From the IMG/VR virus record IMGVR_UViG_3300031975_001384, positions 1 through 30,730 of that record: a stretch of 30,730 bases of DNA, one strand, 5' to 3'. Under the pieces are notes generated by a model that saw only the letters and a list, made by a program, of their open reading frames with translations, had not been told where the DNA came from and made no database searches. Each line of letters opens with the position of its first letter. Positions within the stretch are counted from its first letter, which is position 1. Of this stretch, positions 6,529-30,730 are shown in pieces. The position numbers and the translations under genes were made by a program. This DNA is from a virus.

Positions 6529-6995
6529 TGGCTATTAAAGATACATCAAGAAAACCTTATATTCAAGACAATAATACTAATGTTAAAATTGGTATTGATT
6601 TACCAATTCGTAGAGGTGATGGGTTAGATGGATTTTTTGCATCAACTTCAACAACTATTGAAGCTGTAAAAAACAATATAAGAAATTTATTACAAACCAA
6701 TGAAGGTGAAAGATTTTTTCAACCAAACTTGGGTTTAAATTTAAGAACATTATTGTTTGAACATATTACAAATGAAAATTTAATTGGTGTTCAAAATGCT
6801 ATAATGGATAAGTTTGAATTTTGGTTACCTTTTGTTGAGGTAAGAAATATTGAGGTTTTAAGTAATGATGACGATTCGAGTATAGGTATGAATGAAATTA
6901 GAGTAAAAATATTATTTAACATTAAACAAGACCCAAACACTTTAGATTCTGTAACTTTAGATTTTAATAGTGAAATATTAGAGGGAGATAGATAA
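6528..6995 (+). CDS. gp25: Baseplate wedge protein gp25
   Basis: A clear member of the gp25 family (baseplate wedge, structurally lysozyme-like but without known catalysis), 155 aa, near the family's usual length. The signature is the helix IEAVKNNIRNLLQTNEGERF followed by FFQPNLGLNLRTLLFE (about residues 44-78), then a helix and a long beta strand pair (EIRVKILFNIKQDP). In contractile tails gp25 joins the wedge to the sheath end and works with gp6 in forming the inner ring. It overlaps the genes on both sides by one base and directly precedes gp6, as in many contractile systems. Confidence 0.93.
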   Translation: MAIKDTSRKPYIQDNNTNVKIGIDLPIRRGDGLDGFFASTSTTIEAVKNNIRNLLQTNEGERFFQPNLGLNLRTLLFEHITNENLIGVQNAIMDKFEFWLPFVEVRNIEVLSNDDDSSIGMNEIRVKILFNIKQDPNTLDSVTLDFNSEILEGDR

Positions 6996-9256
6996 TGCCA
7001 ACATATGGTAAAAACAATTTTAAAGAATCAAATGTAAACTATTTAAATAAAGATTTTAGTGCATTAAAAACATCGTTGATGAATTATGCAAAATCTTATT
7101 TTCCAGATACATATCGTGATTTCAATGAGACATCACCTGGTATGATGTTATTAGAAATGAACGCTTATGTTGGTGATGTGTTGTCTTTTTATATTGATAA
7201 GCAATATCAAGAGATGTTATTACCATTAGCGGAGGAGAGAAGAAACATAATCACTATGGCTAAGATGTTTGGTTATAAAGTAAAACCAATTGTACCAGCT
7301 TATGTTGATTTAACATTTACTTCAAATGTAAATGCTTCAAGTGGTGATGTGTCTAAAGTTGATTATTCAAATGCTAGTGTATTTGATACGGGGATTGAAT
7401 TAACTTCTGATTCTAATTCAGATACTATTTTTACAACATTAGAACCAATTGATTTTAGAATTACAGGTTCAAGTGATACTAATACGATTGGTTCAACAGA
7501 TGGTAGTGGTTTAGCTTCAACTTATACATTATCAAGAACTGTAAGAGCTATGAGTGCAACTCAAAAAACAATTACAATTCAAGTTGGGGTACCTGAAAAA
7601 TTTAAAACCATAACCATACCAGACACAAATGTTATTGATATTATTTCTTGTGTGGATTCAAATGGACAAAATTGGTATGAAGTGGATTACTTAGCACAAG
7701 ATAAAGTTCCAATCACCACTCACTATACAGATGATATTAATAGGGATTCAGCTTATTCAACTGAGGATGGTAGTATTCAATCATCTACAGCTGTACCATT
7801 TTCTTTGAGCTATATCACAACAGGAAAAAGATTTACTCGTGAAACAAATTTAGATAATACAACTTCACTTGTATTTGGTAATGGTGTATTAAAAGATGGA
7901 CAACTCATCGATGAGGGATTCATTGATATGGAACAAGTTGGAATTGTTATTCCTGGTCAGACAAATGATTTGAATGAATCTATTGACCCATTATTGGGTG
8001 ATGAGTATTCAACATTAGGTGAAACACCAAACAACATAACTTTAACCATCACTTATAGAGTGGGTGGTGGTATAAACTCAAATGTACCAAGTGGAGATTT
8101 AACAACTGTACCAACTGGAATCACACCAGCTATTAATGGTGGTGCTACACTTGATACTGTTACAAATAATAATCCAGCTCGTGGTGGTAAGGATGAAGAG
8201 GATACAATTGAAATAAAAGAAAGAGCTAAAGCGTTTTTCACAACACAAAACAGATGTGTTACAAAAGAAGATTATGAAGCTAGAGTATTAAACATACCAA
8301 GTAAGTTTGGTAACATAGCAAAAGCATATGTTACGAGAGAAGCACCTGAAATTGCTGGTACTTCTAATTTAACTACATTAGAAAACTATTTTAATAATGT
8401 ACAAGTCGGTATTCGTAATATGTCAGTCTATTTTAATAGTACTAATGTAAGAGCTCAATTGGGACAATTAATAACTGGTGATTTACCTATAGATGCTTTT
8501 ATTGCAGGATTAGATGTATCATTAACCTTTCCCTCTACTTTTGGAAATATTACAACACCTGATATAAGTAATTTAGCTAGAGAATTAGAATTAGGAACAA
8601 TCAACATTTATTTATTAGGATACAATAATAAAAAACAATTAGTTGGTAATTCAAATACATTAACAACTAAAACAAGTGATAATTTACCATTGACTTTAAT
8701 GACAAACATAAAAAAATATTTAGAAAATTTCAAATTAATGACAGATGTCATAACACTAAATGATGGTTATATTGTTAACTTTGGTGTAATGTTTGATGTA
8801 GTTGCTGAAAAATATGCAAATAAACAAGAAGTTAAATTAAATTGTATACAGAAAATAAAAGATTATTTTAGAATTGAAAAAATGCAATTTAATCAACCAA
8901 TTTATAAAAGTAATTTAGAATATGAATTAATGGGTGTAGAGGGTGTTCGTTCTATTGGACATGTAACAATTACTCAAGAAAAAGATTATTTTTATAATGA
9001 TGGTGAGTTATTAAATTCACCTACTTATACATATTCACATACCGATGATACTGGAGTTGATATAAATGGAAACGGTGAGGCCAATGATCCTGGATACATT
9101 ACCGCAGATGGTGGTACAACTGGATATGGGTATAAGTATGATTTCCAAGATGCTCTTTCAGATGATGGTACAATTGTATTACCACCTTTAACATCAACAC
9201 CAACGGTTTTTGAATTAAAGAATCCAAACCAAAACATACAAGGGAGAGTTAGATAA
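6995..9256 (+). CDS. gp6: Baseplate wedge protein gp6 (baseplate J-like)
   Basis: The main wedge protein, whose dimers form the ring around the hub and transmit the host-contact signal to the sheath. At 753 aa it is somewhat longer than T4 gp6 (660 aa). The N-terminus is highly typical: LNKDFSALKTSLMNYAKSYF, FNETSPGMMLLEMNAYVGD, then LSFYIDKQYQEMLLPLAEER and NIITMAKMFGYKVKP (residues about 17-100). The middle is beta-rich, and the gp6/J-like region with helices around NRCVTKEDYEARVLNIPSKF lies at about residues 416-435. The C-terminal 60 residues are Gly/Asp-rich and unlike T4. GGGAGA lies just before the start, and the gene overlaps both neighbours by one base. Confidence 0.93.
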   Translation: MPTYGKNNFKESNVNYLNKDFSALKTSLMNYAKSYFPDTYRDFNETSPGMMLLEMNAYVGDVLSFYIDKQYQEMLLPLAEERRNIITMAKMFGYKVKPIVPAYVDLTFTSNVNASSGDVSKVDYSNASVFDTGIELTSDSNSDTIFTTLEPIDFRITGSSDTNTIGSTDGSGLASTYTLSRTVRAMSATQKTITIQVGVPEKFKTITIPDTNVIDIISCVDSNGQNWYEVDYLAQDKVPITTHYTDDINRDSAYSTEDGSIQSSTAVPFSLSYITTGKRFTRETNLDNTTSLVFGNGVLKDGQLIDEGFIDMEQVGIVIPGQTNDLNESIDPLLGDEYSTLGETPNNITLTITYRVGGGINSNVPSGDLTTVPTGITPAINGGATLDTVTNNNPARGGKDEEDTIEIKERAKAFFTTQNRCVTKEDYEARVLNIPSKFGNIAKAYVTREAPEIAGTSNLTTLENYFNNVQVGIRNMSVYFNSTNVRAQLGQLITGDLPIDAFIAGLDVSLTFPSTFGNITTPDISNLARELELGTINIYLLGYNNKKQLVGNSNTLTTKTSDNLPLTLMTNIKKYLENFKLMTDVITLNDGYIVNFGVMFDVVAEKYANKQEVKLNCIQKIKDYFRIEKMQFNQPIYKSNLEYELMGVEGVRSIGHVTITQEKDYFYNDGELLNSPTYTYSHTDDTGVDINGNGEANDPGYITADGGTTGYGYKYDFQDALSDDGTIVLPPLTSTPTVFELKNPNQNIQGRVR

Positions 9257-25966: not shown

Positions 25967-26476
25967 ATGGTTATATTAGGATTAGATGCATCGACAACTT
26001 GTGTCGGATATGCATTCACAGAAGATAAGAAGATTCTCGATATGGGATTCATCGACATCAAAAAAGAAAAAACACCAAAAGATAAAGTACAGAAAGTTCT
26101 TGAATTTCTCAATAATATTTCGTATATTGATAATGTTGAAAATATTAACATTGAAGACAATCTATCAGGTTTTGCTGGTGGAAGAACTTCACAACAAGTT
26201 ATTATCAAATTAGCTAAGTTTAATGCTATACTATGTTTTATGTTGGAGAATTTTGAATTTAAAGTCAATAGCATAAATCCAATGACTGCTAGAAAAAATG
26301 TGTTTGGAAAAGCTAGAGTCAAAGGTAAAAAAGCAAAACAATTTGTTCAAGAAGAAGTAGAAAAAATGTACAATACCAAGAAATGGTGTAAAGAAACTAC
26401 ACGAGGTAATTGGGATAAGAGGAATATAGATATGTACGATGGTTTGGTTATGTCACTTTTCGAAAAAAAAGCTTGA
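25967..26476 (+). CDS. RuvC-like Holliday junction resolvase
   Basis: A 169-aa RNase H-fold nuclease of the RuvC type, predicted to cut four-way junctions formed during phage recombination and before packaging. Carboxylates expected for two-metal catalysis are present: D7 in ILGLDASTTCVGYA, E63 in INIEDNLSGF, and D155/D158 in NIDMYDGLVMSL. A basic stretch (ARKNVFGKARVKGKKAK) fits DNA contact. T4 uses the unrelated endonuclease VII (gp49) for this step, so this is a functional replacement. The AGGAG is shared with the stop of the last virion gene. The stop codon overlaps the -35 element of the primase promoter. Confidence 0.85.
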   Translation: MVILGLDASTTCVGYAFTEDKKILDMGFIDIKKEKTPKDKVQKVLEFLNNISYIDNVENINIEDNLSGFAGGRTSQQVIIKLAKFNAILCFMLENFEFKVNSINPMTARKNVFGKARVKGKKAKQFVQEEVEKMYNTKKWCKETTRGNWDKRNIDMYDGLVMSLFEKKA

Positions 26477-26508: not shown

Positions 26509-27429
26509 ATGTATAAATACGAATTAGTCACATTGTTAGAAAAAGTATTGATGAAGAGTTACCAAATGAAAAATGGTGAACATGCTTTTCATTGTCCTTT
26601 TTGTAATCATCATAAAAAGAAACTTCAAATTAACACCGAAACACAAAAGTGGCACTGTTGGGTATGTAATCAAGGTGGATACAAGATAGGAATACTCCTA
26701 CGAAAGATAAACGCTCCAAAAAACATCATTTCTGAGGTTCTGAGGATACTTGGTGATTACAAAGGTGTTAAACACGAAAAAGATGAAAAGACTGAATATA
26801 ATGTCAGTTTACCACAATGTTATCAACCACTTTGGAAACCATCTACAGACCCATTGTATAAAAATGCTATAAGTTATTTAAAGAAGAGAGGAATAGGTGG
26901 TATTGATATTCTTCGTTATTCAATAGGATATTGTTCTTCTAATGGTTATGCTAATCGTATCATTATACCAAGTTATGACGCTGATGGTAAATTGAATTAT
27001 TTCATAGCTAGAGATATGTTTCCTAATTCAAATTTTAAATACAAAAATCCACCTATGTCAAAAGATACAGTATGTTTTGAAATGTTTATAAATTGGAATG
27101 AACCTGTTGTTTTATGTGAAGGTGTGTTTGACGCTATATCAATTAGAAGAAACGTAATACCTTTATTGGGTAAGTTTCCAAGTAAAACATTAGTGAAAAG
27201 ATTAGTAGAAAAACAAGTTAAAACAATATATGTTGCATTAGATGAAGATGCTAGACAAGATGCAATTAAGTTAAGTAAGTTTTTAATGGATTATGGAATT
27301 TCTACATACTTATTAAATATGAAAGACAAAGACCCTTCAGAATTAGGTTTCACAAAGTTTTGGGAATTACTCAATACAACTCAACAATCAAAATTTTCAG
27401 ATATTATAAAAGGTAGATTATATGGATAA
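26509..27429 (+). CDS. gp61: DNA primase, T4 gp61-like (zinc finger plus Toprim)
   Basis: Predicted primase that makes RNA primers for lagging-strand synthesis with the replicative helicase, 306 aa. The N-terminal zinc-binding module is FHCPFCNHHKKKLQIN (C29, C32) and WHCWVCNQGG (C50, C53). The Toprim catalytic part has VVLCEGVFDAISIRRN (E204, D208) and YVALDEDARQDAIKLS (D245, D247). The domain order and length fit phage gp61 (342 aa in T4). The start has no Shine-Dalgarno and sits at the predicted transcription start. The last 8 bases overlap the methyltransferase gene. Confidence 0.85.
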   Translation: MYKYELVTLLEKVLMKSYQMKNGEHAFHCPFCNHHKKKLQINTETQKWHCWVCNQGGYKIGILLRKINAPKNIISEVLRILGDYKGVKHEKDEKTEYNVSLPQCYQPLWKPSTDPLYKNAISYLKKRGIGGIDILRYSIGYCSSNGYANRIIIPSYDADGKLNYFIARDMFPNSNFKYKNPPMSKDTVCFEMFINWNEPVVLCEGVFDAISIRRNVIPLLGKFPSKTLVKRLVEKQVKTIYVALDEDARQDAIKLSKFLMDYGISTYLLNMKDKDPSELGFTKFWELLNTTQQSKFSDIIKGRLYG

Positions 27430-28686: not shown

Positions 28687-29412
28687 ATGGATAGAATATT
28701 TATATTCGATATAGATGGAACATTAACACCATCACGGAGAAGAATGACAGAAGAGTTTGCTAAATTCTTTGATAAGTGGAGTGAGAAAAATAAATATTAT
28801 TTAGTTACAGGTAGTGATTTGGATAAAACAAAAGAACAATTACCAATCGCTTATATTGATAGGGCAGAAGCCATATTCACTTGTTGTGGAAATCAAATGT
28901 GGAGAGATGATGAATTAATTTATAATAATAAATTTACTCCACCAGAGTCTTTAATTGAACACTTAGAAGAAAAAATAAAATATAGTAAATATTATCACAG
29001 AGCTGGTAATCATATTGAAGATAGAGGTTCAATGTTAAATTTTAGTGTAGTTGGTAGAAATTGTACACAAGAGCAAAGAGAAGATTATTTTAAATGGGAT
29101 AAACAGACTAATGAAAGAAAAAATATATCAAACGATATAAAATCTACTTGGACAAAATTAGATGCAGTAATTGGTGGACAAATATCAATTGATATTTATC
29201 CGAAAGGTAGTGATAAATCACAAGTACTTAATATAATAGAACAAGAGAGATTAGTACCACCTAGTGAATATATTTTCATAGGTGATGGAATTGAAAATGG
29301 TGGTAATGATTATCCATTAGCTGAATTGATGGATAATACAGAAATATGTGATTGGTATCACACAAAAGGTTGGGAACATACAAAAGAAATATTGGAGAGT
29401 TTAATTGATTAA
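28687..29412 (+). CDS. Eukaryotic-type phosphomannomutase (HAD superfamily)
   Basis: Predicted to interconvert mannose-6-phosphate and mannose-1-phosphate, the step before GDP-mannose, in the cytoplasm; 241 aa, near the family's 245-265. The HAD start is FIFDIDGTLTPSRRRMT with nucleophile D8 and acid D10. PMM-specific blocks follow in order: LVTGSDLDKTKEQL, RGSMLNFSVVGRNC (R113-R124), IGGQISIDIYPKGSDK (residues 162-177), and FIGDGIENGGNDYPLA (D200, N207, D208). These blocks match the human PMM2 type far better than the unrelated bacterial ManB-type mutases. A phage homologue is unusual, and lateral transfer is likely. The start has no clear Shine-Dalgarno. It overlaps the next gene by 8 bases. 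Confidence 0.88.
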   Translation: MDRIFIFDIDGTLTPSRRRMTEEFAKFFDKWSEKNKYYLVTGSDLDKTKEQLPIAYIDRAEAIFTCCGNQMWRDDELIYNNKFTPPESLIEHLEEKIKYSKYYHRAGNHIEDRGSMLNFSVVGRNCTQEQREDYFKWDKQTNERKNISNDIKSTWTKLDAVIGGQISIDIYPKGSDKSQVLNIIEQERLVPPSEYIFIGDGIENGGNDYPLAELMDNTEICDWYHTKGWEHTKEILESLID

Positions 29413-30730
29413 AACAATTGCACATTTAGCAGACATACATATTAGAAAACTACATAGATTTGTAGAGTATCGTCAAGTATTTAAAAATTTATACAAACAA
29501 CTAAAAGAATTAAAACCAGATGCTATTTATATTGGTGGTGATGTGGTTCACGGAAAACTCGATACATCACCTGAAGAAGTCAGAATGGTTGCAAACTTCT
29601 TTTTAGAATTGTGTAAGATTGCTCCCACTATCATCATTCCTGGTAATCACGATTGTAATTTGAATAACAAATCAAGAGAAGATACACTTTCTCCCATTGT
29701 TGATTTAGTACAAAAGATTACACCTAATTTACACTATTGGAAAAAGACAGGTGTTTATAATATGGATAATGTTGACTTTGCTCATTTGTCTATTTTTGAT
29801 ATTGATAAAGAGGGTAAACAGATAACACATACTATACCTAATCCAAAGGATTTAAAGAATACAAAGATTGCTTTATTTCACGGTGGAGTGGACAAACACT
29901 TTTATGATAATGGATTTCAAGTTCAAGATGATAGAGTGACGAATGATACATTTGATGGATACGATATGGTGTTGTTGGGTGATATACATAAAAGACAATT
30001 CTTAAATGAAGAAGAAACAATTGGTTATCCAGGTTCATTGATTCAACAGAATTATTCAGAAGAACCAAGTCACGGATTTTTATTATGGGATGTAGAGAAA
30101 AGAAAAGCTGAATATCATCAAGTAGAGAATGATTATGGATATAAAATATTAAATGTAGAAGATGGTGAAATATTAAACTCAACAACTGGTAAACCATTTG
30201 AATTAACATTTATGCCACCTAAAGGTAGAGTTAAAGTTAAATTTACTAACACTACATTGGAACAAATTAAAGACATACAAATCGGTTTAAGAAAACAATA
30301 TCCAAAGTTAAAAGAGATTGTTACTGAAAGACAAGACAATATATCCATTGGTGATGATAGAGAAAACAAATTGGATATAGGTGATGTAAGAGATATTAAT
30401 TATCAGAATGAATTAATTGATGATTTCTTGAAAAGAAATGTTGAAGGTGTTGATGAGGAAACAATTAAAAGAGTTCAAGAAATAAATAAAATGACAAATA
30501 ATTCACCAGAAATATACGATGGTGATATTACACGAAATGTGGATTGGAAAATTAAATCATTTGAATTTGACAATATGTTTTGTTATGGTAAGGGAAATAA
30601 AATAGACTTCACAAAACTTGATGGTACGATTGGTGTAGTCGCTCCTAACCATAGTGGTAAATCTGCTATAATGGATGCTATTGCATATACAATCTATGAT
30701 GTATGTAGTAGAACTAATCGAGCGTTGGAT
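29405..30730 (+). CDS. gp47-gp46: Mre11/Rad50-type (gp47-gp46) fused recombination nuclease, 3' partial
   Basis: One frame is open from TTG 29405 to the window end (442 codons). Residues 1-200 carry the Mre11/SbcD/gp47 phosphoesterase motifs: AHLADIHIR (D10, H12), IGGDVVHG (D46), IPGNHDCN (N81, H82), ALFHGGVD (H159) and LLGDIHKRQ (D193, H195). From about residue 379 a Rad50/SbcC/gp46 N-terminus follows without a stop: DWKIKSFEFDNMF, IDFTKLDGTIGVVA, Walker A APNHSGKS (residues 413-420), MDAIAYTIYD. T4 encodes these as two genes. Together they resect DNA ends for recombination-dependent replication. TTG is chosen because GGAG lies 7 bases upstream and no in-frame ATG precedes the first catalytic motif. 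The first P-loop Gly is Ala here. Confidence 0.85.
   Translation, partial: MIKTIAHLADIHIRKLHRFVEYRQVFKNLYKQLKELKPDAIYIGGDVVHGKLDTSPEEVRMVANFFLELCKIAPTIIIPGNHDCNLNNKSREDTLSPIVDLVQKITPNLHYWKKTGVYNMDNVDFAHLSIFDIDKEGKQITHTIPNPKDLKNTKIALFHGGVDKHFYDNGFQVQDDRVTNDTFDGYDMVLLGDIHKRQFLNEEETIGYPGSLIQQNYSEEPSHGFLLWDVEKRKAEYHQVENDYGYKILNVEDGEILNSTTGKPFELTFMPPKGRVKVKFTNTTLEQIKDIQIGLRKQYPKLKEIVTERQDNISIGDDRENKLDIGDVRDINYQNELIDDFLKRNVEGVDEETIKRVQEINKMTNNSPEIYDGDITRNVDWKIKSFEFDNMFCYGKGNKIDFTKLDGTIGVVAPNHSGKSAIMDAIAYTIYDVCSRTNRALD

Follow-up and report, generated by a model that had tools for sequence, protein, structure and literature searches.

Mre11 and Rad50, normally made as separate proteins, together form a machine that processes DNA breaks. 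The window, a stretch of viral DNA of 30,730 bases that makes up all of record IMGVR_UViG_3300031975_001384, ends inside an open reading frame in which a first-pass annotation had seen Mre11 (gp47) and Rad50 (gp46) fused. This raises the question of whether the locus is one gene for a single chain, two genes merged by error, or one frame from which Rad50 is also made separately.

The open frame and its domains

In the window, the frame from TTG 29405 runs for 442 codons without a stop up to base 30730, the 3' edge of the contig, as had been read from the sequence before, and an in-frame stop (29402-29404) immediately precedes it. Its first 8 bases are shared with the gene ahead of it (28687-29412). 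A GGAG lies 7 bases ahead of the TTG, and the predicted 16S-tail pairing at this start was -6.7 kcal/mol, compared with a median of -6.0 for 25 gene-like starts in the window (TTG 29405 included). The equivalent codon was ATG, GTG or TTG in all 15 closest relatives (L002-L015, L027). Pfam placed PF00149 (Metallophos) on residues 4-196 (E 6.8e-13) and PF13476 (AAA_23) on residues 389-439 (27.4 bits; cut-off 27). PHROGs and Pfam described the N-terminal part as a calcineurin-like phosphoesterase/SbcD and the C-terminal part as the start of an SbcC-like AAA domain. The features are as follows; L005 is a relative 93% identical to the window protein, and A2 is an alignment of 69 sequences.

29394..29397, plus strand: GGAG, likely Shine-Dalgarno of the TTG start (sequence; pairing energy -6.7)
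29405..30730, plus strand: Mre11-Rad50 fusion ORF, truncated at the record end, 442 codons held (open frame; relatives)
29411..30124, plus strand: Mre11/SbcD phosphoesterase domain, about residues 3-240 (Pfam PF00149, 4-196; structure matches of the L005 model)
29432..29440, plus strand: motif I, D10-I-H12 (sequence)
29537..29551, plus strand: motif II, G45-D46-V-V-H49 (sequence, A2)
29642..29653, plus strand: motif III, G80-N81-H82-D83 (sequence, A2)
29879..29884, plus strand: motif IV, H159-G160 (sequence, A2)
29978..29989, plus strand: motif V, G192-D193-I194-H195, with Asp where Thermotoga Mre11 has His (sequence comparison)
30134..30331, plus strand: Mre11 capping domain, about residues 244-309 (secondary structure of the L005 model; SbcD/Mre11 chain alignment to residue 308-315)
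30395..30499, plus strand: two helices, 331-345 and 351-365, likely the Rad50-binding helix-loop-helix of Mre11 (L005 model; named from position)
30500..30544, plus strand: interdomain linker, residues 366-380, about 15 residues (pLDDT about 60 at 371-380; mostly synonymous variation)
30545..30730, plus strand: Rad50/SbcC ATPase lobe I, truncated at the record end (PF13476; L005 model compared with E. coli SbcC)
30641..30664, plus strand: Walker A, A413-PNHSGK-S420, with K419 (sequence, A2)

All five phosphoesterase motifs were found, with one metal ligand being Asp and not His. They occupy positions 10-195, in agreement with the first-pass annotation, which had put them all in residues 1-200; its Walker A APNHSGKS with K419 was recovered as A413-S420 within the AAA_23 match. 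By computation, this single frame encodes the phosphoesterase with its capping domain and then two helices, which a linker of about 15 residues joins to Rad50 lobe I. Since the record stops within the gene, the fusion was tested in relatives instead.

The junction in related contigs

Using the window protein (ending at residue 442) as query, we obtained 31 viral loci encoding relatives at 39-95% identity (set 1), and the existence of these loci indicates that the fusion frame is not due to chance. Alignment A1 as query found at least 465 relatives, of which the best 80 were taken (set 2; 79 of them new), and seven contigs of a genome collection (L116-L122) formed set 3. The resulting 117 rows represent 115 distinct loci, because L037 and L102 are duplicates of contigs already in the set. 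Choosing the best 80 of at least 465 by best match introduces a bias toward unbroken frames. The homologues of set 3 sit on contigs assigned to MAGs of archaea or bacteria (Nitrosopelagicus, Chloroflexi, Gammaproteobacteria and others) and are perhaps misbinned phage contigs.

A stop or frameshift at the junction had been named as one observation that would speak against a fusion. We found none in the window, and of the 109 distinct related contigs extending as far as the junction, a set that includes the best 80 of at least 465, all 109 were open there. A sequence pattern identified 107 of these; L121 was checked apart, and L119, which the pattern misses, has a 1,041-codon frame. The remaining six of the 115 loci (L010, L011, L028, L031, L032 and L122) meet a contig edge before the junction. 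In set 1 alone, 26 of the 31 loci reach the junction and all 26 are open. Counted from where the match begins, 111 of the 117 rows had 442 or more open codons, and 100 had a closed frame of more than 950 codons, both counts again including the best 80 of at least 465.

The coiled coil, CxxC hook and Walker B that had been expected further downstream lie beyond the end of the window record, but in the relatives the frame does extend through a coiled coil, a zinc-hook CxxC, a signature motif and Walker B. From the match start, near-complete relatives span 1,024-1,075 codons, and their frame includes both the hook and Walker B; among 99 distinct relatives of more than 1,020 codons, the hook starts at 706-747 and Walker B at 969-1012. 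Complete relatives 77-95% identical to the window protein carry CEYC or CEFC, SSGME and FIIVDE, all in frame, and C745, C748, K419, D1014 and E1015 (L005 numbering) are invariant in 69/69 sequences of A2. One contig, L007, has a premature stop (9016-9018) that limits it to 1,005 codons, before Walker B. It differs from the near-identical L006 by one nonsense base in 3,300; either this copy of the gene is broken or the base was misread.

A metagenomic contig that ends inside a gene could in principle owe its frame to an assembly or sequencing error that merged two adjacent genes. However, the same frame is open in the 109 contigs described above, selection of the best matches included, and Microcystis phage Mel-JY01 has a single CDS of 1,066 residues; an assembly artefact was rejected on these grounds. 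Moreover, nine of 19 linker codons in 12 close sequences showed only synonymous variation and four showed amino-acid changes, and mostly synonymous variation is as expected for a translated linker. We regard the probability of such a merger as negligible.

AlphaFold2 was run on L005 together with the 69 sequences of A2. The resulting model had a mean pLDDT of 82.8 and a pTM of 0.45, so the mutual placement of its domains is unreliable; a run on L005 without other sequences gave a pLDDT of 36.8 and was uninformative. Comparison of the single chain with known structures, as had been proposed from the sequence, resolved an Mre11 fold at about residues 1-310 and a Rad50 fold from residue 381. Residues 3-310 matched SbcD chain 7dog_B (Z 25.7, 281 residues, 3.6 A), covering the Mre11 fold with the capping domain. 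Residues 381-1073 matched E. coli SbcC chain 7yzo_D (Z 30.6, 350 residues, 3.2 A), and this alignment starts with model residue 381 at chain residue 1. A profile search of the PDB also returned SbcC, Rad50 and Mre11 chains. Judged by their position in the model, helices 331-345 and 351-365 are likely the Rad50-binding helix-loop-helix of Mre11. For the Thermotoga complex, 9-12 residues were estimated to be enough to bridge the gap, according to the accessible portion of Yoshida, Claverie and Ogata (2011, PMC3175470); the linker of about 15 residues is therefore long enough.

An open frame could still yield some free Rad50 besides the single chain, from an internal start such as GTG 30539 or ATG 30491, or separate subunits by cleavage of the linker. 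In-frame start codons after position 30300 of the window are TTG 30371, TTG 30428, ATG 30491, GTG 30539 and ATG 30575, the last of which falls within the Rad50 part. GTG 30539 is the best placed, two codons upstream of the Rad50 start and with a predicted anti-Shine-Dalgarno pairing of -7.2 through GGTGA, and the linker is of low confidence in the L005 model (pLDDT about 60 at 371-380), which would suit cleavage. However, GGTGA is 13 bases distant, which exceeds the usual range for initiation, and the codon is GTG in just six of 13 close relatives (L002, L006, L007, L013, L014 and L027) and another Val codon in seven. A subgroup of 17 contigs (L064, L071, L072, L074, L075, L078, L089-L092, L094, L095, L104, L105, L108, L111 and L112) shares an ATG-ATG pair (RMMP) roughly 42 codons upstream of the FDNMF motif of Rad50. 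This pair lies inside the Mre11 helix-loop-helix, is missing in the window group, and has a pairing below -6 in only two of the 17 (L094 and L104). An AGGA stands 4-11 bases before some internal start codon in four of 108 sequences (L064, L089, L091 and L092). Comparison of the start codons near the junction revealed no internal Rad50 start position common to the relatives. The independent gp46 start with a strong ribosome binding site, the other finding held to argue against a fusion, was thus not found family-wide, and apart from the ATG-ATG subgroup and the four AGGA cases an internal start for a separate Rad50 is unsupported. We consider separate subunits from this frame very unlikely.

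We conclude with high confidence that the locus is one gene of a large tailed phage, that it encodes a predicted single-chain Mre11-Rad50 (SbcD-SbcC) nuclease-ATPase, and that it stands in for gp46/gp47. Two such chains would pair via their Rad50 heads (with ATP), their Mre11 domains and the hook to give an (MR)2 equivalent of the heterotetramer, in which ATP binding and hydrolysis may gate the access of DNA ends to the nuclease. By analogy with T4 gp46/gp47, the product would resect ends for recombination-dependent phage replication and repair. It is plausible that the fusion fixes stoichiometry and interface. With both parts naturally in one chain of about 1,070 residues, the protein would be convenient for the study of Rad50 gating of Mre11.

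Active-site and ATPase signatures

The window protein retains D10, H12, D46, N81, H82, H159 and H195, all of which except H12 are invariant in 69/69 sequences of A2. H12 is replaced by Gln in 7/69, the window being unaffected. Motif V reads GDIH in the window and GHIH in Thermotoga Mre11, and the corresponding D193 is invariant (69/69). Motif V is GHxH in T4, BSP38, S-SSM7, P108 and S-SKS1 but GDLH in PSTCR5, a phage with separate genes, so the change from His to Asp is not tied to fusion. H49, the His at GDxxH, is likewise invariant in A2 (69/69); BSP38 and P108 also have this His, and the trait is thus not special to fusions. Motif I is DxQ, a metal-ligand change, in five of 20 tabulated fused sequences: L038, L039, L117, L119 and pT24 (L124).

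In the ATPase part, the ABC signature was (T/C/S/A)SGME in 68/69 sequences of A2, with L113 (ASNFE) as the exception. It was TSGME in LR756501 and pT24, and SEGEK, SAGEQ or STGQQ in six separate-gene phages. The P-loop begins with Ala and not Gly, as the first-pass annotation had pointed out. A413 is invariant in 69/69 sequences of A2, and we rejected the view of the Ala-led P-loop as an oddity, since it is the usual form among the relatives.

The Asp at D193 and the Gln for H12 in 7/69 sequences mean that nuclease activity should not be presumed. The chain might have lost it and act as a DNA-tethering ATPase, a reading to which the replacement of a metal-ligand His by Asp throughout A2 and the DxQ motifs would lend themselves. 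However, Asp can serve as a metal ligand, the separate-gene phage PSTCR5 has GDxH as well, and the window keeps the seven residues listed above. We think loss of the nuclease improbable and retain the reading of a single-chain nuclease-ATPase.

Known fusions and genomic setting

The window protein matched 264 of 50,697 phage records, 16 of them over at least 80% of its length: Mel-JY01, LR756501, LR756503, LR756508 and 12 Bacillus phages. The Bacillus phages each have at least two annotated features under the match (BSP38 has two genes), and LR756503 matches at coordinates identical to LR756501. A search for other phages with this architecture, suggested at the outset, yielded the single-chain form in Mel-JY01, LR756501, LR756508 and pT24.

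Like the window, Mel-JY01 (host Microcystis elabens) has one CDS (WWT39521.1, 38.6% identity) with a primase-like gene upstream. It is annotated as 'AAA domain containing protein', which names neither Mre11 nor a fusion, and no paper on this phage was found in the open-licence literature. Tenacibaculum phage pT24 (YP_009876626.1, one fused CDS of 1,310 residues) and LR756501 (a 735-kb phage record, one fused ORF of 1,202 residues) share GDIH with the window and have TSGME. Both are far diverged, matching window residues 2-219 at 29.8% and 1-440 at 31.2%, respectively, and unlike the window they have a Gly-led P-loop and a motif II without the His. T4 gp47/gp46 resembles the fusion in its two activities, by homology, and gene 47 is transcribed before gene 46. 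In contrast to the fusion, the T4 genes are separate, with two small ORFs between them, and encode GHFH in motif V and SEGEK compared with GDIH and SSGME.

The architecture is not new: on the accessible portion of PMC3175470, such fusions were first reported in 2011; what is seen in the window and its relatives agrees with this description, and they are thus of a known kind. That portion describes Mimivirus R555 and twelve more Mre11/Rad50 fusions in a Bacillus phage, plasmids and cells; the one in Bacillus phage 0305phi8-36 is incomplete, as it lacks an NTPase segment and also the C-terminal region of Mre11. It further ranks R555 homologues first by number among the Mimivirus-like sequences of two metagenome sets, suggests that some R555-like genes from aquatic metagenomes are phage-derived, and notes that just a few long environmental sequences confirmed the fusion itself. 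Like the window, R555 is one ORF with an N-terminal Mre11 and a C-terminal Rad50. It is reported to have Asp for the Pyrococcus ligand His206 and His for the third Asp of GDxxD, and, compared by this published description only, both substitutions are paralleled by D193 and H49 in A2. The differences are its length (1,351 residues compared with 1,024-1,075 codons here) and the tailed-phage genome of the present fusion. Within the open-licence literature, PMC3175470 alone named the fusion in its title, which is weak as evidence of absence, and the accessible part of PMC7824862 treats SbcC and SbcD as partners with no mention of a fusion.

New here is a conserved phage-borne fusion family with its own active-site signature. 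The analysis ties the fusion to phage genomes, and the fused form is the usual one in the window's phage group. In an unrooted tree of 26 tips with long branches (20 fused sequences and six separate-gene phages, with R555 and a cellular outgroup left out), the separate-gene phages grouped at a support of 100, apart from the 20 fused, and LR756501 and pT24 grouped at 62. This topology suggests one fusion (or fission) event within the sample. A Foldseek search of viral proteins with the L005 model gave a Tupanvirus protein of 1,379 residues as the best match (25% identity, E 1.6e-70). The top matches came under the giant-virus names Tupanvirus, Harvfovirus, Yasminevirus, Terrestrivirus and Catovirus. 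We put forward tentatively, as an unlikely but conceivable scenario, that aquatic phages carry an old, coherent and monophyletic single-chain Mre11-Rad50 lineage (GDxH, SGME) that was the source of the Mimivirus-like giant-virus fusion gene.

Upstream of the fusion gene, the window includes one further feature:

26509..27429, plus strand: DnaG-like primase gene (phrog_47, E 4.4e-39)

Of the 97 sequences that extend more than 2.6 kb upstream (window counted), 91 have a primase homologue ahead of the fusion gene on the same strand, and 73 of these 91 have it at most 102 bases from the fusion match start. The two are separated by three genes in the window. R555 homologues on environmental scaffolds likewise occur with phage primases (accessible portion of Yoshida et al. 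2011, PMC3175470). Judging from one of its other genes, which encodes a baseplate-wedge protein (6995-9256; phrog_219, E 4e-22), the window very likely belongs to a contractile-tailed phage. Beside the primase is a RuvC-like resolvase gene (25967-26476; 23.3 bits, Pfam cut-off 22.2). The gene directly before the fusion (28687-29412) encodes a protein of the HAD fold, and it was found upstream in two of the 97 sequences, the window counted. Pfam matched its product to eukaryotic phosphomannomutase (E 9.2e-28), and PHROGs to phrog_29277 (E 2.4e-60), a family of unknown function.

We surveyed ten chosen longer phage records (114-484 kb) for separate subunits. The SbcC profile phrog_77 had one strong match in 10/10, at the fusion gene, and the SbcD profile phrog_100 had one match, also at the fusion gene, in 9/10, LR756508 giving none. 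Neither a second SbcD gene nor a separate gp46-gp47 pair was found in these ten records. Additional phrog_77 matches were weak (Mel-JY01, E 7e-6 and 1.8e-4; G005, E 5.3e-4), lie at profile positions 473-792 and are probably coiled coil. The single SbcC and SbcD matches at the fusion gene imply that the fusion stands in for the pair. In the 484-kb phage LR756508 (L034, 5671-6588), the fusion gene is split right after motif V by about 1 kb. Rfam families gave no match in this insertion up to E 0.1; its ORF matches a TnsA-like endonuclease (E 5.8e-6), and the insertion is perhaps a mobile intron.
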